DNA of 64,000 nucleotides. Source: an uncultured Bacteroidota bacterium (lineage in GTDB: Bacteria; Bacteroidota; Bacteroidia; Bacteroidales; UBA12077). Each line of letters opens with the position of its first letter. Within the stretch, counting starts at the first letter, position 1. The DNA lies in contig CAJXLK010000001.1 of the NCBI GenBank assembly GCA_913055635.1, positions 1 to 64,000 of the forward strand, given 5' to 3'. A model generated the notes under the pieces. It was not told where the DNA came from. It saw only the letters and a list, made by a program, of their open reading frames with translations, and did not search any database. A program made the translations under genes and the position numbers. This document shows, one piece after another, positions 9,040 through 59,143 of this stretch.

Positions 9040-9225
9040 TGGGTTAATGCGTGAATGCCTGCCCCGCTGAAATGATGTCAAAGCGGAGGATAAATGCCTG
9101 CCCCCGCTAAACAAAGTGGAAGCGGGGATTGAATGATTCAATGATTCAATGATAAAATGATAAAATGATTAAATGAGTAAATGATTAAATGAGTGAATGA
9201 GTAAATGATTAAATGACAAAATATT
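9040..9225. repeat. CCTGCCCCGC palindrome copies plus AAATGATT short repeats
   Basis: Two adjacent copies of the dispersed element (GCCTGCCCCGCTGAA ... AGCGGGGATTGAATGA) are followed by a run of 8-bp units of the kind ATGATTAA/ATGAGTGA. The same order, palindrome then short ATGA units, recurs at 16598, 19843, 28978 and 38085. Confidence 0.85.
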
Positions 9226-9269
9226 TGACTTTTAAGGTTTTAGTAAGACAGGTTTTTATGCCTGGCCTT

Positions 9270-9889: not shown

Positions 9890-10184
9890 GCCATCAATAC
9901 CCGCCAGGTGGGGCATCAGGTAGGCACCCGAAAGCATCCGACCAGTTGCCGGCTTGCTTAAAAAGAAGCAGGAATGCACTAATCATGACCGCCACAGATA
10001 AAACCCCGGAATTACGATAACGCGGGGCAACGAATTTCATGGTCAGGATAAAATAAAACAGCCCGGTCAGCATGACTGCATATCCAAGGGTCAGGACATG
10101 AGCAACAATCTGGTATCCCCTCTCGGAGAAACCTTGTTCCATTCCGACATAATTTTTGAAGGTGGCGTTTCCAAGTTCTTTCAT
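9890..10184 (-). pseudogene. Remnant of a sodium-pumping (KR2-type) rhodopsin, middle deleted
   Basis: Minus-strand residues 1-85 read MKELGNATFKNYVG..., HVLTLGYAVMLTGLFYFIL, SVLS-like VAVMISAFLLLF and NWSDAF, which line up with the KR2-type rhodopsin N-terminus, helix A and helix B (KR2: QELGNANFENFIG, HILTLGYAVMLAGLLYFIL, VVMVSAFLLLY, NWTSSF). Immediately after NWSDAF the match jumps: in the next frame the DNA encodes SGAYLMPHLAGIDG (9890-9931), corresponding to PGAYLMPYLTGVDG after helix F. Helices C-E and most of F, including the NDQ pump motif, and helix G with the retinal Lys are missing. The gene is therefore a double-broken relic. The KR2 comparison is from memory, not an alignment run. 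Confidence 0.85.
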
Positions 10185-10311: not shown

Positions 10312-10407
10312 ATGGAATCAGTAAAGGCCTTTATTGAAGCGATGGTTTTATGTAAGGCGGATGCCGAAAAGCCTGAAACGAGTAGGTTAATGTTAAAACG
10401 GAAATGA
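10312..10407 (+). CDS. 31-residue micro-ORF overlapping the zinc-ribbon gene
   Basis: An ATG at 10312 opens a 31-residue frame (MESVKAFIEAMVL..., ending LMLKRK) whose TGA overlaps the ATG of the next gene in an ATGA junction (10404-10407). It has no family features: a short amphipathic helix then a basic tail. The four-base overlap suggests translational coupling; a chance frame is possible. The gap 10185-10311 upstream is AT-rich, with promoter-like sequence for the rhodopsin relic on one side and this operon on the other. Confidence 0.4.
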   Translation: MESVKAFIEAMVLCKADAEKPETSRLMLKRK

Positions 10408-10742
10408 ACGGGATGCATCTTTGTCCCAATTGTAATGGAAAACTTCCATTGAGGAAATTTTTCCTGGTCAATAATTTCAAATCGGTTCGATGTCCCCATT
10501 GTGGGGCGAGGTTGGTTCCTGATAAAAAGACGAACAGCCTGATTGGTGGAATAGCAGGATTTTCCACCGCCCTCACCGTGGGATTGGCAACGGTGGTCTA
10601 TTATTTACTGGGAGAAATGTATGGTACCCTGATCGTCCTTATTACCTGTTTGTTGGTAATAATGATCTATTTGGCTTCTGTGTTAATTACCCGGAATGTT
10701 GTGGATTTTAAAACCAAAAACTTTAGCAATGAAAAAAACTAA
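10404..10742 (+). CDS. Zinc-ribbon two-TM membrane protein (CXXC-~20-CXXC type)
   Basis: The 112-residue protein starts with CPNC (7-10) and CPHC about 20 residues later, a zinc-ribbon with the spacing of the small CXXC-20-CXXC membrane protein family, followed by two transmembrane helices (about 47-69 and 74-95) and a short polar tail. Function is unknown; such proteins sit in small membrane-associated operons. Its last codons overlap the start of the next gene by 14 bp, so the two are probably co-translated. Base composition is AT-richer than the surrounding chromosome. Confidence 0.7.
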   Translation: MNGMHLCPNCNGKLPLRKFFLVNNFKSVRCPHCGARLVPDKKTNSLIGGIAGFSTALTVGLATVVYYLLGEMYGTLIVLITCLLVIMIYLASVLITRNVVDFKTKNFSNEKN

Positions 10743-10989
10743 AATTTTGGCCATTGGTATTATTCTTTCTATGACATTGTCATTGTCTATAGTAAAGAAT
10801 GTTGATTCAAACAATCAGAATATTGGTGTAGGCGTGTGTTATTTAGCAGCAAAAAATGGAGCAAGTGATGAAGGTACAGCTCTGCTTGGAGGTGCATTTG
10901 CTGTAGAAAGCGCTGCACAAGGATTGCTATGGGGTTCTGTCTTTGGAGGTCCTGTAGGAGCTGCGGTAGGACTTGGAATAAGTCTTTAA
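10729..10989 (+). CDS. Secreted hydrophobic Gly/Ala-rich peptide, bacteriocin-like
   Basis: The 86-residue product has a Lys-initiated hydrophobic signal segment (KKTKILAIGIILSMTLSLS, 2-20), a polar stretch (KNVDSNNQN), one Cys (36), and a small-residue hydrophobic C-terminus (GGAFAVESAAQGLLWGSVF, then GGPVGAAVGLGISL). The composition is that of a precursor of a membrane-active peptide (class II or circular bacteriocin-like), with a Gly-Gly and a C-terminal GLG-type segment. An earlier in-frame ATG at 10696 lies inside the preceding gene; 10729 is preferred because it gives the signal peptide. A strong hairpin follows, as after many precursor genes, and a SpoIIM/DUF95-like gene is next. The bacteriocin reading is inference; no immunity or peptidase gene is identified. 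Confidence 0.65.
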   Translation: MKKTKILAIGIILSMTLSLSIVKNVDSNNQNIGVGVCYLAAKNGASDEGTALLGGAFAVESAAQGLLWGSVFGGPVGAAVGLGISL

Positions 10990-11000
10990 ATTTTAGTCTT

Positions 11001-11030
11001 TATATGGGGAGTCGCTTTTCTCCCCATATA
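11001..11030 (+). terminator. Perfect 11-bp hairpin after the peptide gene
   Basis: TATATGGGGAG (11001-11011) pairs exactly with CTCCCCATATA (11020-11030) around an 8-base loop, followed by ATTTATATTT. It lies between the peptide gene and the SpoIIM-like gene, where a partial terminator or mRNA-stabilising stem would raise peptide expression over the downstream genes. Confidence 0.75.
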
Positions 11031-11040
11031 ATTTATATTT

Positions 11041-11553
11041 ATGAGATCTACCTTTTATATTATCGTTCTAATTATATACTTATCTTCTTTATTTGCAGGC
11101 TTTTATTATGAAGGGGAGATATACTCTTCTCATTTTGAAATTTTTGAAAAACAACAGGAGGGCTCTTTTAAACTTATTTTTTCCGGATTATTGGAAAATA
11201 ATCTTTTAGTAATTTTGACTAATATATTGAGTTTTTGCTCATTTGGCCTTATATCTTTCTATAACTTAATTGCTAACGGGTTTAGTCTGGGTATTGTATT
11301 ATCCCGTACAATTAATACTATTGGAATTAATAAAATGATTATAAATATATTACCTTATGGTTTATTTGAGATTATGGGGCTGTGGTTATCATGTTTTGCA
11401 GGGTTTTTGGGTACTATAATTATTTATAGATTGATTACCAAAAATATCCTATTATTAAAGGATATAAAAATATATCTGTTTTTTTCCTTAGTTTCGGTTA
11501 TTTTAACAATATTATCGTCATTCCTTGAGACCCTTATCATAATAAATATGTAA
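11041..11553 (+). CDS. SpoIIM/DUF95-like membrane protein
   Basis: The 170-residue protein has four to five membrane helices and the SpoIIM/DUF95 pattern: NN before a helix (LLENNLLVILTN, 50-61), an NG.SLG turn (79-84) and a PHG-x-x-E-like motif read as PYGLFE (105-110). In firmicutes SpoIIM works in engulfment; related DUF95 proteins are standard members of circular-bacteriocin clusters, where they take part in maturation, secretion or immunity. Its place directly after a hydrophobic secreted peptide and before a Yip1-like protein fits the second use. AT-rich codon use suggests horizontal acquisition with its neighbours. Confidence 0.7.
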   Translation: MRSTFYIIVLIIYLSSLFAGFYYEGEIYSSHFEIFEKQQEGSFKLIFSGLLENNLLVILTNILSFCSFGLISFYNLIANGFSLGIVLSRTINTIGINKMIINILPYGLFEIMGLWLSCFAGFLGTIIIYRLITKNILLLKDIKIYLFFSLVSVILTILSSFLETLIIINM

Positions 11554-11555
11554 TA

Positions 11556-12116
11556 ATGAATCGTTTTTATACAATTAATTCATTTATAGTTGTTTTTTTG
11601 ACAGCTTTCTTAGTAGCATTTTGCAAATTAGAATTGGCTGGTCATTTTCCCATTGATCTTTATAGTTCTTCCTTTAATGAAATGTTAAACTATGTAACGT
11701 TTTCATTTTCATTTTTTAGTGTTATTGTTTCCTGGTTTTTTATAACAATTTTATTTCATTATACTACTTTCTTTTTTGATGCTCAAGGATCTTTTTATAA
11801 ACTCCTAATTCATTCAGGATATGGTTATTTTCCATTAATGATTTATTCTTTTGTTTTATTTTTCTTAATTGAAGATATTTCCGGTGATTATTTATTTTTA
11901 AAAAGTGGTGAATATTCTGTTCCGGAAATTAAGAAATTTTTATCTGAGGACAATAAAATATTATTTTTAAGATTTTTAAGTCGATTTGCTCAACTTCTTT
12001 TGTTGATATGGGTAGTTTGGGGGATAAAAAAATATTACGGTTTATCTGTTTCGAAGTCATTAATTTGTGTTTTTATTCCTTTAATTTTAATTGGTATATT
12101 TTTAAAATATCTATAG
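11556..12116 (+). CDS. Yip1-like multi-pass membrane protein
   Basis: The 186-residue product has five hydrophobic segments with short loops and one polar extracytoplasmic loop (about 105-135), the architecture of Yip1-domain proteins. No catalytic motif is visible. It starts two bases after the previous stop codon (TAATAATG), so it is certainly in the same operon. Together with the SpoIIM-like protein it may form the membrane part of a peptide export or immunity system; that is inference. The name Yip1-like rests on topology only. Confidence 0.55.
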   Translation: MNRFYTINSFIVVFLTAFLVAFCKLELAGHFPIDLYSSSFNEMLNYVTFSFSFFSVIVSWFFITILFHYTTFFFDAQGSFYKLLIHSGYGYFPLMIYSFVLFFLIEDISGDYLFLKSGEYSVPEIKKFLSEDNKILFLRFLSRFAQLLLLIWVVWGIKKYYGLSVSKSLICVFIPLILIGIFLKYL

Positions 12117-15340: not shown

Positions 15341-16597
15341 ATGGACCGAGTCATTGAAAAAAAGAACAAACTGCTCAGTAAACGAAACATTTGGTTCATG
15401 GTAGGAGGCATACTTGCAGCCCTGGTCATTTATAACATTTTCTTCGGTGATAAAAGCTCGAAGCTCAATGTGGAACGGGAGAAGATTACCGTGGAACCTG
15501 TTGAAAAGGACGTTTTCAAGGATTATATTGCCGTGATCGGCACAGTTGAGCCGATCAAGACCATTTACCTGGATGCCGTGGAAGGCGGCCGTGTTGAGGA
15601 GATCCTGATTGAGGAAGGCAATATGGTTCAAAAGGGCGATGAGATATTGCGCCTGAGCAATACCGACCTGATACTACAGATCTCCAACAACGAAGCGCAG
15701 GTGGCCCGGGCGATCAATGAGCTGCGCCAGGCCCGTTTGCAGATGCAGCAGCAACAGCTGAACAACGAAAGCGAGCTGATCGACCTGCGGCGGGAGTTGG
15801 ACAAGCAGCGGCGCAATTACCAGAACAACAAGAAGCTTTATGAGAGTGAACACATCTCATACGAGGAATATAAGCAAAGCAAGGAACAATATGAGGCCAC
15901 CGTCCGGAAGTTTGAGCTGTTCAAGAAGGCCCAGAAGCAGGATTCCATTTTCCGCGCGATCCAGATCCGGGGCCTGGAGAAATCGGTGAACCGGCTGGAA
16001 AAATCGGTAGACGTGGTACGCGACAAGCTGGAGAACCTGCACGTGAAGGCCCCGGTCAACGGTGAGCTGGCCAACCTGAACCCCGAAGTGGGCGAGGTGA
16101 TCAACTACGGCAACCGCATCGGCAAGATCAATATACTGGACGACTATAAGATGAATGTGGAGATCGATGAGCACTACATCGCCCGCGTCAGAAGGGGCCT
16201 GCCCGGTTCATTCGACTATACCGGCGATACCTATAATCTGAATGTGACCAAGAAATATCCGGAAGTCAACCAGGGCAAATTCACCGTCGACATGGAATTC
16301 TCCAACCATGCGCCCAATGACATCAGCATCGGCCAGACCTTCCGCATCAAGCTGGAGCTGGGTCAGTCGAAACGGGCGGTTCTGATTCCACGGGGCGGTT
16401 TCTATCAAAGTACCGGCGGGCAATGGGTCTACGTTGTGGATGAGTCGGGCGATTTCGCCACCAAGCGTGACATCCGCATCGGCCGCCAGAACCCACAGTA
16501 CTACGAGGTGATCGAAGGCCTCGAGCCGGGCGAGAAGGTGATCGTCTCCAGCTACGACAACTTTAATGAAGTGGATAAGCTGATGCTGAAGAAATGA
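15341..16597 (+). CDS. HlyD/MacA-type periplasmic adaptor (membrane fusion protein)
   Basis: The 418-residue protein has one N-terminal membrane anchor (about 17-35), a biotinyl-lipoyl hairpin split around a long coiled coil (about 105-205, rich in Q, E, K and R), then beta-barrel and membrane-proximal domains (VLIPRGGFYQ, GLEPGEKVIVSSYDNF). It should bridge an inner-membrane ABC transporter to a TolC-like channel. It is followed 197 bp later by an ABC ATPase, but no FtsX/MacB permease or outer-membrane channel is adjacent, so the rest of the pump must be elsewhere. The divergent NtrC-like activator probably regulates it. Confidence 0.92.
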   Translation: MDRVIEKKNKLLSKRNIWFMVGGILAALVIYNIFFGDKSSKLNVEREKITVEPVEKDVFKDYIAVIGTVEPIKTIYLDAVEGGRVEEILIEEGNMVQKGDEILRLSNTDLILQISNNEAQVARAINELRQARLQMQQQQLNNESELIDLRRELDKQRRNYQNNKKLYESEHISYEEYKQSKEQYEATVRKFELFKKAQKQDSIFRAIQIRGLEKSVNRLEKSVDVVRDKLENLHVKAPVNGELANLNPEVGEVINYGNRIGKINILDDYKMNVEIDEHYIARVRRGLPGSFDYTGDTYNLNVTKKYPEVNQGKFTVDMEFSNHAPNDISIGQTFRIKLELGQSKRAVLIPRGGFYQSTGGQWVYVVDESGDFATKRDIRIGRQNPQYYEVIEGLEPGEKVIVSSYDNFNEVDKLMLKK

Positions 16598-16750
16598 GGG
16601 AATGTTTAAATGAGGAAATAATAAAATGCTTAAATGACAAAATGAGGCAATGCTTAAATGAGGAAATGATAAAATGACAAAATGCTTAAATGAGGAAATG
16701 TTTAAATGAGGAAATGATAAAATGCTTGAATGATTGAATGCTTAAAGAAA
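16598..16750. repeat. Short tandem repeat of AAATGAGG/AAATGCTT units
   Basis: A run of 7-9 bp units (AAATGAGG, AAATGATA, AAATGCTT, AAATGACA) fills the gap between adaptor and ATPase genes. It begins within the last codons of the adaptor gene (GAAATGAGG), so the unit resembles the gene's own stop region. Confidence 0.8.
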
Positions 16751-16794
16751 GAAATGAACAATTAACAATATAATAATCACTAAACCTAGAGATC

Positions 16795-17478
16795 ATGATA
16801 CGTACGAAAGAATTAGTCAAAGTTTTCAGGACAGATGAGGTAGAAACCACCGCCTTGAACCAGGTGAACCTCGAGGTCGAATTCGGCGAGTTTGTCGCCA
16901 TAATGGGTCCTTCGGGATGCGGCAAATCGACCCTGCTCAACCTGCTGGGCCTGCTCGACAATCCATCCGGGGGTGAGCTTCACTTCATGGACCATGAGGT
17001 ATCGGGCTACAGTGAGCGCAAGCGCACCAACCTGCGTAAGGCCAACATCGGCTTTGTTTTTCAGAGTTTTAACCTGATCGATGAACTGAATGTATATGAA
17101 AATGTAGAATTACCCCTGTTGTATCTGAACAAGCCCAGTTCCGAGCGCAAGCAGCGGGTGGAAGAGGTGCTCGAGCGCATGAAGATGTCGCACCGCAAGA
17201 AGCACTTCCCCCAGCAGCTTTCCGGCGGTCAGCAGCAACGCGTAGCCATCGCAAGGGCCGTGGTGGCCAACCCCAAGCTCATCCTCGCCGACGAGCCGAC
17301 CGGTAACCTGGACTCCGCCCACGGCGAAGAGGTGATGAACCTGCTGCAACAACTCAACAATGAAGGCACCACCATCATTATGGTGACCCACTCACCGTCC
17401 GACGCCGAGAAAGCTCACCGCATCGTGCAGCTCTTCGACGGGCAGATCGTCACCGAGAACATCAAACAGGTGCTCTAA
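16795..17478 (+). CDS. ABC transporter ATP-binding protein, LolD/MacB type
   Basis: The 227-residue ATPase has Walker A GPSGCGKST (38-46), signature LSGGQQQR (142-149), Walker B LILADEP (162-168), and the His-loop VTHSP. The short single-domain form with this signature belongs to the MacB/LolD/FtsE group, which pairs with FtsX-fold permeases. It should energise the pump that uses the adjacent HlyD adaptor. A matching FtsX-type permease gene is found 16 kb away (33364-35784) but is not obviously co-regulated. Confidence 0.94.
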   Translation: MIRTKELVKVFRTDEVETTALNQVNLEVEFGEFVAIMGPSGCGKSTLLNLLGLLDNPSGGELHFMDHEVSGYSERKRTNLRKANIGFVFQSFNLIDELNVYENVELPLLYLNKPSSERKQRVEEVLERMKMSHRKKHFPQQLSGGQQQRVAIARAVVANPKLILADEPTGNLDSAHGEEVMNLLQQLNNEGTTIIMVTHSPSDAEKAHRIVQLFDGQIVTENIKQVL

Positions 17479-55978: not shown

Positions 55979-58900
55979 ATGAAGAAGTTATCTTTTTTAA
56001 TTGTACTGATGCTATTTGTCGGATTTCAGGCAATGGCACAGATGCAGATTACGGGGAAGGTCACCAATGCGGAGACGGGTGAGCCGATTCCCGGCGTATC
56101 GATTTTTCTAAAGAGCCAGCAGACAATCGGTACCACCACCGACATGGATGGCAAGTACAGCCTGGAGGTGCCATCTGAAGGTGAGACGCTTGTTTACACC
56201 TTTGTCGGCATGCAACAGCAGGAGGTCGACATCCAGGGTCGTTCGACCATTAATGTACAGATGAAACCGAGTGTACAGGAGATGGAAGAGATTGTGGTTA
56301 CGGCCTTCGGAACCACCAAGAAAGAGTCGTTTACCGGCTCGGCCGACGTGGTTGATGCTGAAAAGATTGAAGAACAGAACGTCTCGAACATTACCAAGGG
56401 CCTTGAAGGTATTGCCCCCGGCATTCAGGTGCAGAATTCTTCCGGACAGCCTGGTGCCAGCAGTGAGATTCGTATTCGTGGTTTTGGTTCAGTCAACGCC
56501 TCGAGCGATCCGCTGTATGTAGTGGACGGTGTGCCCTATTCCGGTTCCATGAATGCCATCAACCCCAATGATATCAAGAATATCACGGTATTGAAGGACG
56601 CTACGGCTACTGCCCTTTATGGTGCACGTGGTGCCAACGGTGTGATCAACATCACCACTAAGAGCGGTTCCGGTGTGGAAGAGTCTACCATTTCCTACAA
56701 TTATGAGCAGGGTGTTAGCGCACGTGCCTTCCCGGAATATAAACTGACCGGCAGCGAAGAGTACATGGAGCTGATGTGGGAAGCTTACCGCAACTCGCTC
56801 TATTATGGCGGTACCATCGGTGATCTGGAGCAGGCCGGGCAGGTTGCTGCCAAAGGCGGCCCCAATAACCCCAGCGTGATAGAAAACTTGGGCGGCTATA
56901 ATCCCTTTGATGTGGAAGCCTCCAACCTGATCACTCCCGACGGTAACGTCAATCCCAATGCCAATCTGCTTTATGGCAACAACTGGCAGGATGAGATGTT
57001 CCGCCTGGGCGACCGCAGCGAGCACAACCTGAGCTTTGCCGGAAGCAAAAAGAAAACCGACTATTACATGTCGCTGGGTTATGTCACTGAAGATGGTATT
57101 GTTAAGAACTCCAACTTTGAGCGTTTCAATGCCAAGCTGAACGTGACCAGCCAGATCAAAGACTGGTTGGAAGCCGGCGTCAACATTGGCGCATCCACGG
57201 CCGATCAGAACTACCTGATGGCTTATGGTACTTATACTTCCAACCCGTTCTATTATACCCGCTTTATGGGTCCGATCTATCCGGTGTATCAACGCGATGC
57301 CGACGGAAACATCAGAACCGACAATGAAGGCAAAAAACTCTTGGATTATGGTAACCGCCCTGATGAGGGCAAGGTAAGACCTTATGCCGCCAACTCCAAC
57401 ATTGTCGGTACCACCGGGCTGGATACCCAGAATGAAAAAACCGAAAACGTCAACACCCGCGCCCATGTCAAAATTGACATTATTGATGGGTTGACTTTCA
57501 AATCGACCCTGGGTGCCGACTATATGAACCGCCATAACCATGACTATCAGAACTCCATGCATGGGGATGCCGCTTCATTTGACGGCCGTACTGAAAAGAT
57601 CAATGAGCGCCAGGTTTCGGTCAACCTCAACGAGATTTTGACCTACGACCAGCAGTTTGGCGATCATGCCATCAATGCCCTGGTGGGTCATGAGTCGTAC
57701 AAGATGAACAACAACTACATGACAGCCACCCGCACCGGATTCCCGTTCTATGGCGTAGAAGAGCTGGCCATGGCATCGGTTGGGGAAGGTTCCAATTCTT
57801 TCCGGGATGAATACCGCATTGAAGGCTATTTCTCCCGCGTCAAATACAACTTTGACAACCGTTACTATATTACCGGTAGCTACAGAAGGGATGGCTCCTC
57901 AAGGTTCCACGAAGATACGCGTTGGGGTGATTTCTTCTCCATTGGCGGTTCCTGGAGGGTCAGCGAAGAATCCTTCATGACCGGCATGAACTGGGTACAG
58001 GATCTGAAGGTGAAGGCCAGTTATGGTGAGCAGGGCAACGACCGCCTGCTGGATAACAATAACAACCCCATGTATTATGGCTACAACTCCTTCTATTCCA
58101 CTCTGAACAACTATTCCTACAGCGGATTTTACATCACCCAGCTGGCCAACCGGTCACTGCAGTGGGAGGTCAGTGAAAACCTGAACGCTGGTGTCGAATT
58201 CAAACTCTTTGACAATACACTGAGCGGTGAGATCAACTACTTTGAAAAGGGATCCTCTCAACTGCTCTTTGACAATCCACGGCCTATGTCAACCGGTATT
58301 TCCTTTGTTAAGGACAACGTAGGTGCCATGGAAAACAAAGGCATTGAGGCTTCACTGAATGTTTTCATCCTCAAGGGCGATGAAATGCGCTGGAATGTAG
58401 GTGGATCTGTGACTTCTTTCAACAATGAGATCACCGAACTGCCGAAAGAAGAGATCATCTCTGGTTCGAAGAAGCTGATGGTTGGGCATTCCCTGTATGA
58501 CTATTACATCCGTCAGTATGCCGGTGTGGATTCTGAAACGGGTGAAGCCCTTTATTACAAGGATGTGCTTAACGATCAGGGTGAACCTACCGGTGAGCGC
58601 ACCACCACCACCAGCTCCGGTGAAGCCACCAAATATTACAGTGGCAGCGCCATTCCTGATATGACTGGTGATTTCAATTCCAGCTTCTACTACAAAGGTT
58701 TCCGTTTCTCCTTTATGCTGACTTACGGCATTGGCGGAAAAATGCTGGATTATACCTATAGTAGACTGATGCATGCCGGCGATTATGGCACCAACTTCCA
58801 TACCAACATCAAGGACCGGTGGCAAAAGCCCGGTGATGAGACCGATGTACCCCGACTGGAGAATGGCTATGACGATGCCAACTACACCTCAGACCGGTTC

Positions 58901-59143
58901 CTGATCGACCGTTCTTACCTGAACATTAAGAACGTCCGGCTCAGCTATACCGTACCGCAAAAACTCCTGAAACGGGCAGGCCTGGGTCTGGTCCGCAAAT
59001 TCCAGGTGTATGTATCCGGAAACGATCTGTACCTTTTCTCCAAGATGCAGGGCATGAACCCGCAGGAAAGCTTTGCCGGCGTCACCAACTATCAGTATAC
59101 CCCGACTAAAACCATCATGGTGGGTACCAATATTAAATTCTAA
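55979..59143 (+). CDS. SusC/RagA-type TonB-linked outer-membrane transporter
   Basis: The 1054-residue protein has a signal peptide (1-21), a CarboxypepD_reg-like domain (about 22-100, GKVTNAETGEPIPGVSIFLK), a TonB-dependent plug (about 105-230, VVTAFGTTKKESFTGSADVV, RIRGFGSVNASSDPLYVVDG) and a 22-strand barrel to the C-terminal GTNIKF. With the following SusD it forms an outer-membrane import complex for glycans or peptides. Neighbouring degradative enzymes are absent, so the substrate cannot be told. A 12-bp gap to the SusD gene shows one operon. Confidence 0.97.
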   Translation: MKKLSFLIVLMLFVGFQAMAQMQITGKVTNAETGEPIPGVSIFLKSQQTIGTTTDMDGKYSLEVPSEGETLVYTFVGMQQQEVDIQGRSTINVQMKPSVQEMEEIVVTAFGTTKKESFTGSADVVDAEKIEEQNVSNITKGLEGIAPGIQVQNSSGQPGASSEIRIRGFGSVNASSDPLYVVDGVPYSGSMNAINPNDIKNITVLKDATATALYGARGANGVINITTKSGSGVEESTISYNYEQGVSARAFPEYKLTGSEEYMELMWEAYRNSLYYGGTIGDLEQAGQVAAKGGPNNPSVIENLGGYNPFDVEASNLITPDGNVNPNANLLYGNNWQDEMFRLGDRSEHNLSFAGSKKKTDYYMSLGYVTEDGIVKNSNFERFNAKLNVTSQIKDWLEAGVNIGASTADQNYLMAYGTYTSNPFYYTRFMGPIYPVYQRDADGNIRTDNEGKKLLDYGNRPDEGKVRPYAANSNIVGTTGLDTQNEKTENVNTRAHVKIDIIDGLTFKSTLGADYMNRHNHDYQNSMHGDAASFDGRTEKINERQVSVNLNEILTYDQQFGDHAINALVGHESYKMNNNYMTATRTGFPFYGVEELAMASVGEGSNSFRDEYRIEGYFSRVKYNFDNRYYITGSYRRDGSSRFHEDTRWGDFFSIGGSWRVSEESFMTGMNWVQDLKVKASYGEQGNDRLLDNNNNPMYYGYNSFYSTLNNYSYSGFYITQLANRSLQWEVSENLNAGVEFKLFDNTLSGEINYFEKGSSQLLFDNPRPMSTGISFVKDNVGAMENKGIEASLNVFILKGDEMRWNVGGSVTSFNNEITELPKEEIISGSKKLMVGHSLYDYYIRQYAGVDSETGEALYYKDVLNDQGEPTGERTTTTSSGEATKYYSGSAIPDMTGDFNSSFYYKGFRFSFMLTYGIGGKMLDYTYSRLMHAGDYGTNFHTNIKDRWQKPGDETDVPRLENGYDDANYTSDRFLIDRSYLNIKNVRLSYTVPQKLLKRAGLGLVRKFQVYVSGNDLYLFSKMQGMNPQESFAGVTNYQYTPTKTIMVGTNIKF

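Follow-up and report, generated by a model that had tools for sequence, protein, structure and literature searches.

Results

A compact four-gene block in the window

The window (the whole stretch of 64,000 nucleotides analysed) contains four intact plus-strand genes in succession at 10404-12116, coding for a zinc-ribbon-like protein (ZnR), a precursor peptide, a SpoIIM protein and a Yip1 protein. ZnR (10404..10742, +) has 112 aa, a CXXC-19-CXXC motif and a hydrophobic C-terminal half, with overlapping hydrophobic peaks at residues 47-65, 62-80 and 77-95; the initial annotation, which described a CXXC-about-20-CXXC protein with two transmembrane segments, had placed this frame correctly. Its closest model, TIGR04104 'cxxc_20_cxxc', scored 36.2 bits, under the cut-off of 45. 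The peptide gene (10729..10989, +) overlaps the ZnR stop by 14 bases and encodes an 86-aa precursor. The 51-base gap 3' of it is occupied by a perfect hairpin with a 12-bp stem (11000..11031, +; z -3.9), as had been noticed before. It is followed by the gene of a short SpoIIM/DUF95 membrane protein of 170 aa (11041..11553, +; PF01944, E=2e-11, 44.5 bits, cut-off 26.9). The ATG of the 186-aa Yip1-domain membrane protein (11556..12116, +; PF04893, E=1.7e-7, 31.7 bits, cut-off 28.6) lies two bases past the SpoIIM stop. Both family assignments of the initial annotation were thus borne out by Pfam matches over cut-off.

The GC content of the block genes was 0.24-0.40 versus 0.489 for the whole window, in agreement with the claim that the block is AT-richer than its surroundings. 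Also as claimed, no peptidase or ABC transporter was recognised within the block. A 31-residue micro-ORF with an ATGA overlap, which had been counted as a member of the operon, was not supported: it matched no Pfam or NCBIfam family, and in the related locus L147 described below the ZnR gene sits after the Yip-like gene instead. PADLOC gave no match for five proteins, and PHROGs gave weak matches only, of which the best had E=0.004 (ZnR) and 0.006 (peptide).

The precursor peptide and the hairpin behind its gene

The small hydrophobic peptide with a signal was found where it had been proposed. Its leader is hydrophobic (about residues 1-22), and its Gly/Ala-rich C-terminal region ends GGPVGAAVGLGISL. 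The region past the leader has a net charge of -2, which is unlike most bacteriocins. No Pfam family was matched by the peptide (query without the first Met), and NCBIfam returned only three unrelated matches (E 0.12-0.22), with no precursor model among them. From the same library, TIGR03651 matched two other precursors, that of L066 over cut-off and that of L085 under it. The predicted structure of the peptide alone had a pLDDT of 67, and a PDB search with this model gave no match below E=3.

Weak peptide matches were also obtained elsewhere. They occurred in nine other genomes of the order sample (E 0.003-0.1); one, L041, was rejected as antisense to a 505-aa frame that is SusD-like by eye, and the other eight lie in frames of at least 187 aa. 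Apart from the relative in genome G987, six weak matches were found in a further search, the best of them (G920, E=3e-5) inside a 344-aa frame. A peptide profile searched against 4360 frames from 62 loci gave nothing below E=0.5.

A hairpin directly follows the peptide gene in all three Bacteroidota peptide loci folded, namely the window, L147 (z -4.4) and L143 (z -5.8), and its sequence differs between them. Folding of the sequence behind the peptide gene in five archaeal loci gave no significant hairpin in four of them and a weak one in the fifth (z -2.3). A hairpin at this place suits a device that holds the peptide mRNA in excess.

A relative from another family has the same four gene positions

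Genome G987, of the same class as the window's genome but another family, has the same four gene positions on one strand (locus L147). The order is peptide (87 aa), SpoIIM (169 aa), Yip-like protein (182 aa from the likely start) and CXXC-CXXC protein (100 aa), so that the ZnR gene is first in the window and last in L147. The Yip-like gene begins one base after the SpoIIM stop, and the ZnR gene overlaps the Yip-like stop by four bases. This block is also AT-richer than its surroundings (GC 0.247 versus 0.319), and no ABC gene was recognised in the 10 kb around it, judged by eye from the listed frames only.

The two peptides align over their full length (34% identity, BLASTP E=2e-9) and share the C-terminal end GGPVGxAVGxGxxL. 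The window peptide has GG at residues 53-54, and the L147 peptide has GA at the equivalent place. When only the part past residue 22 was compared, the real alignment still scored above 2000 of 2000 shuffles. ZnR matched its L147 counterpart at BLASTP E=1e-10. Global alignments beat 1000 of 1000 shuffles for the peptide (z 9.5), SpoIIM (z 7.2) and ZnR (z 8.9). Judged by these alignments, the three L147 proteins are clear homologues of those in the window.

The Yip-like protein of L147 matched no Pfam model, and hhalign against a five-row Yip set gave a probability of 1.8. Its alignment with the window Yip1 had z 3.3, compared with 1.4 and 1.2 for unrelated control pairs. Since 6 of 2000 shuffles did as well, its homology to the window Yip1 is likely but short of shown. 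The possibility that SpoIIM homologues never neighbour a small peptide, which would speak against the proposed system, was examined and did not hold: the L147 SpoIIM adjoins a homologous peptide.

Few short SpoIIM loci in the sampled Bacteroidota genomes

In 24 other genomes of the same family, neither a SpoIIM match at E 0.001 nor a ZnR match at E 0.01 was found. PF01944 was present in 47 of the 295 genomes of the order sample (the window's included), and the window's frame was the only short intact one over cut-off. Profiles of short SpoIIM proteins matched in 95 of 395 genomes of the phylum, 20 of 294 of G588's class and 89 of 179 of G517's family (these three samples overlap), and the matching frames were almost all long, at roughly 300 aa and upward. 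Apart from the window's, short intact frames of no more than about 210 aa occurred in G588, G373, G517, G883 and G987, and G652 gave a marginal, partial one (E=0.005). A class sample of 129 genomes added no further short frame. Within the sampled genomes, the complete four-gene set occurred in two only.

The G588 locus (L143) comprises a LytTR gene, a hydrophobic leader-bearing peptide of 73 aa with a strong hairpin behind its gene, a Yip1-like gene and SpoIIM. Its peptide could not be aligned with that of the window (1562 of 2000 shuffles as good), and its Yip1-like protein scored under the cut-off of Pfam. No Yip1 match was obtained for L144 or L145. G883, of the same genus as G588, has a closely similar SpoIIM on a contig that stops where the peptide would be. 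The Yip1-like gene of G883 is split by two minus-strand frames (L146 786-2583; 404 and 202 aa), which are transposase- and resolvase-like by eye. G373 and G517, two of the five other short-SpoIIM Bacteroidota loci opened, have an M48 peptidase beside SpoIIM and no recognisable peptide.

Searches of genome contigs with the window SpoIIM alone, of viral contigs, and of phages with the SpoIIM gave no usable relative. The same was true for plasmids when the window Yip1, the L147 peptide or the L147 SpoIIM was the query; the window peptide gave one plasmid match at E=5, which was not usable.

The window SpoIIM groups with those of bacteriocin and archaeal peptide loci

The AlphaFold2 model of the window SpoIIM has six helices (pLDDT 90.7). 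Foldseek gave matches only at E about 1 and above, and VIA gave Z up to 7.3 against helical bundles that seem unrelated. A profile search of PDB sequences returned two unconvincing matches, the better with E=0.009 over 30 P-ATPase residues.

A maximum-likelihood tree was built from 71 SpoIIM rows, and a branch with support 98/81 splits them into 49 and 22. The 22-row side contains the window, L147, L144, L145 and the circular-bacteriocin rows from Priestia, Paenibacillus and Heyndrickxia. It also holds rows from Methanomethylovorans and Geobacillus plasmids, nine Methanococcales-Archaeoglobales-Thermococci rows (seven of which pass the peptide criterion given below), three Methanobacteriaceae rows with no peptide seen by eye, and L118. 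The 49 rows on the other side include rows from Bacillota, Methanomicrobiales and further archaea and the seven full-length Bacteroidota rows that could be used. L143 is among the 49 and thus falls opposite the window, yet has a peptide. Ten full-length rows were tried and eight entered the tree (L016 and L119 did not); one of the eight, L118, suffered from bad trimming (end branch 5.3) and was not counted, hence seven usable rows. L087, a peptide locus, was kept out because its SpoIIM frames are shorter than 120 aa. Several end branches are long, and the tree therefore does not fix the exact partner of the window. On this tree, the window SpoIIM shares its side with SpoIIM proteins from circular-bacteriocin clusters and from archaeal peptide loci, in line with the link from DUF95 to circular-bacteriocin clusters drawn in the initial annotation.

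A housekeeping SpoIIM was considered and rejected as the identity of the window protein. The other intact over-cut-off PF01944 frames of the order sample have at least 318 aa, and the usable full-length Bacteroidota rows stand apart from the window in the tree.

Peptide genes beside SpoIIM in archaea and on plasmids

A genome scan yielded 57 loci, none titled Bacteroidota; 16 were opened, and a peptide criterion was run on 56. Peptides passing it lay near SpoIIM in 8 of the 56 loci, and these 8 are all among the 11 that scored highest for SpoIIM. None was seen in the controls, which were 46 far upstream, 40 far downstream and 56 antisense. These figures serve as a specificity check only, because the criterion was set after those loci were inspected and does not recover the peptides of L147 and L143. 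In Methanococcales, Archaeoglobales and one Thermococci genome, a leader-bearing Gly/Ala-rich peptide lies upstream of SpoIIM, and in Methanococcales a Yip1 gene follows SpoIIM (Pfam-tested for L058 only). The Methanothermococcus locus L056 (455-5157) has three successive units, each of a leader-bearing peptide, another small protein and a short SpoIIM; a gene that is Yip1-like by eye comes after the three units. A study of antimicrobial peptides of archaea by Makarova et al. (2019, mBio) may already describe the archaeal loci.

Among plasmids, the top match of the window SpoIIM was from Priestia (E=1e-3, 35% of the query), in a cluster (NZ_CP059459) with YIP1, four annotated circular-bacteriocin genes and SpoIIM. 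The second was from a Methanomethylovorans plasmid (E=0.1). On that plasmid (L052, 2745-4393), two near-identical 66-aa hydrophobic peptides lie beside SpoIIM, with YIP1 on the opposite strand, which makes L052 a candidate archaeal circular bacteriocin locus.

The block is absent from two sister species

Seven relatives were searched for the histidine-kinase gene on the right flank of the block, and two same-genus matches with room beyond, G004 and G001, were opened (the G002 contig ends within the kinase gene and G003 has no kinase match). Both keep the right-hand operon of histidine kinase, regulator, adaptor and ABC ATPase, with main matches at 85% (G004) and 82% (G001) nucleotide identity, and the small gene left of the block matches at about 71% in both. 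The block itself is absent from both, with both flanks present, and the equivalent interval holds other frames. Since the flanks are kept without the block, the block is an insert at a variable spot. The proposal of horizontal acquisition was supported: the block is absent from two sister species, found in another family and AT-rich.

The adaptor (15341-16597) and ABC ATPase (16795-17478) downstream of the block had their best matches to darobactin-export models, under cut-off. This operon was considered as a dedicated partner and rejected, because it is native and present in G004 and G001 without the block; it is thus not part of the block.

The interval in G001 is filled by a 408-aa frame (L164, 5314-6540), ATPase-like by eye. 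On the far side of the interval, an extra short copy of the kinase 3' end was seen in both relatives (L163 2301-2381, 90%; L164 6617-6666, 84%). On the left side of the block in the window, a short minus-strand frame (9894-10184) resembles the beginning of bacteriorhodopsin-like proteins (PF01036, 23 bits, cut-off 24.6) and is probably a rhodopsin gene remnant. The initial annotation had placed the block among decayed genes; this one frame confirms the statement in part.

Discussion

Comparison with known systems

In the available portions of two surveys, the common gene set of circular bacteriocins consists of a precursor, SpoIIM and a transporter or ATP-binding gene (PMC8659200, PMC8534725). 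Yip1 is commonly present in the clusters (PMC8659200), including that of cerecyclin (PMC8534725), and SpoIIM is described as class-defining (PMC13289728). In the parts consulted of two genome-mining studies, circular-bacteriocin clusters come almost wholly from Firmicutes, with two Actinobacteria and one Thermotogae precursor in addition in one (PMC8534725), and five propionibacterial clusters and one from Novosphingobium in the other (PMC5695211). As far as the accessible text of PMC7132975 goes, removal of the DUF95 protein led mature leucocyclicin Q to accumulate inside cells, and SpoIIM was suggested to anchor the ABC ATPase.

The block shares SpoIIM/DUF95 (PF01944 over cut-off, tree placement), the frequent but optional Yip1 (PF04893 over cut-off) and a small hydrophobic precursor with the Priestia megaterium plasmid cluster NZ_CP059459 and cerecyclin, and the SpoIIM rows of Priestia, Heyndrickxia and Paenibacillus are on its side of the tree. 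Unlike circular-bacteriocin clusters, it has no ATP-binding protein among its five frames, and it has a Sec-like leader and an added ZnR gene. The nearest identified ATPase downstream (16795-17478) is part of the operon present in G004 and G001, where the block is missing. The peptide also differs in its charge of -2 past the leader, and no circular-bacteriocin precursor model in Pfam or NCBIfam recognised it. Because of the missing ATPase and the unrecognised precursor, we do not class the block among the circular bacteriocins, although its way of working may be similar. We read it as differing within the circular-bacteriocin kind by its Sec-like leader and the lack of a dedicated ABC ATPase. 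The initial annotation called the combination unrecognised. This was half wrong, since Yip1 is reported as common in circular-bacteriocin clusters and SpoIIM and Yip1 have been reported together; the ZnR, the Sec-like leader and the missing ATPase are indeed unusual. No description of a Bacteroidota version of the block was found in the literature searched. Similar loci would have been missed by both surveys, because one required an ATP-binding gene as cluster criterion (PMC8534725) and the other searched by transporter proteins (PMC8659200), according to the parts of these papers available.

In the archaeal loci, as in the block, a short SpoIIM is preceded by a small hydrophobic peptide, in most cases with a leader; several also have a Yip1-like gene close by (by Pfam in L058, by annotation in L052), and no ATPase was recognised by eye between the genes. 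They differ in having another small membrane protein where the block has ZnR. Homology of the archaeal L064 peptide to that of the window was not provable (109 of 2000 shuffles as good). The SDP system of Bacillus is another point of comparison: SdpC is exported via Sec, and YknW is a Yip1-family protein. The archaeal L058 Yip1 weakly matches the YknW model (NF052650, 28.7 bits, cut-off 110), and no SdpA or SdpB partners were recognised in the block. YknWXYZ protects against the SDP peptide toxin, as stated in an excerpt of PMC4887032.

Bacteroidetocins have a double-glycine leader and its exporter. They are peptide toxins of Bacteroidetes and, unlike the window peptide, are related to class IIa bacteriocins, according to the consulted part of PMC6671954. 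As to double-glycine class II systems, which have a GG/GA leader and a C39 peptidase exporter, the alignment contains a GG/GA pair, and no exporter was identified among the frames of the block.

A possible mechanism and its alternatives

The block is probably an uncharacterised antibacterial-peptide system, as it is absent in sisters, present in a distant relative, and combines a secreted-looking peptide with membrane proteins of the circular-bacteriocin type. Judging from the sequences, we give slight preference to a horizontally acquired, bacteriocin-like peptide operon as a candidate reading. The peptide system of bacteriocin type that had been proposed earlier agrees with the peptide kept with its neighbours in L147, the SpoIIM tree placement and Yip1. 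In such a system, the hydrophobic leader would insert the precursor into, or pass it across, the inner membrane via Sec, and would replace the ABC exporter of the classic clusters. Once the leader is removed, about 60-65 residues would remain, and the Gly-rich C-terminus of this peptide may pack helices inside the target membrane; head-to-tail cyclisation is possible. SpoIIM and Yip1 could serve maturation or release as well as self-protection, and ZnR might take part in maturation or release, self-protection or regulation. The hairpin would keep peptide mRNA above membrane-protein mRNA. Since no ATPase is encoded in the block, one would have to be borrowed, or SpoIIM would act otherwise.

If the ATPase is borrowed, for example from the adaptor/ABC operon 3-5 kb downstream, the product could be a true head-to-tail cyclized bacteriocin. 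The class-defining SpoIIM (excerpt of PMC13289728), the frequent Yip1 (excerpt of PMC8659200) and the sub-cut-off darobactin-export matches of the downstream adaptor and ATPase suit this explanation. We consider it unlikely, given that the operon is native and occurs in G004 and G001 without the block, no ABC gene was recognised by eye in the 10 kb around the L147 block, no precursor model matched and the post-leader charge is -2. A linear class II-like peptide, cut after Gly-Gly 53-54 (Gly-Ala in L147) into about 32 residues with GxxxG, would account for the GG/GA pair at equivalent places and the conserved GGPVGxAVGxGxxL end. It is improbable, as no C39 peptidase-transporter was recognised in the window or the L147 block, and the N-terminus is a hydrophobic leader, unlike the usual double-glycine leader.

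The peptide may also have no antimicrobial role and belong to the membrane or envelope, where SpoIIM and Yip1 would handle it as a signal, a stress factor or a factor of membrane remodelling. It is acidic and rare, ZnR suggests sensing, and SpoIIM is also paired with M48 peptidases where no peptide is recognised. The patchy distribution, the absence in two sisters and the AT-rich insert fit a competition system better, and we regard a non-antimicrobial role as rather unlikely. That the frames are decayed or arose by chance and have no function is very improbable: a neighbouring gene fragment, the rhodopsin-like piece, speaks for it, but the four frames of the block are intact, and three are conserved at the protein level with a genome of another family.

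The bacteriocin-like reading, extended beyond the window, leads to a tentative and rather doubtful generalisation: Bacteroidota and archaea may share a class of secreted peptide antibiotics that are matured and tolerated by a short SpoIIM and Yip1 without a dedicated ABC ATPase, and the circular bacteriocins of Bacillota, which depend on an ATPase, would form one branch of this class. If the block works in this way, the role of SpoIIM and Yip1 would be separable from that of the ATPase, and the block would offer a small test system for these unsettled roles in circular-bacteriocin biosynthesis.

Other features of the window

A dispersed repeat around TTTCAGCGGGGCAGGCATT occurs on both strands with at most 3 mismatches at 9054, 12390, 19871, 28995 and 52426; two of its copies form 51-nt inverted arms that flank the block, 3253 nt apart. 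Arrays of an 8-bp AATGA-type unit lie at 9132-9228 and 16593-16761. A SusC/RagA protein, whose presence suggests a Bacteroidota genome, is encoded at 55979-59143 (785.8 bits, cut-off 368).
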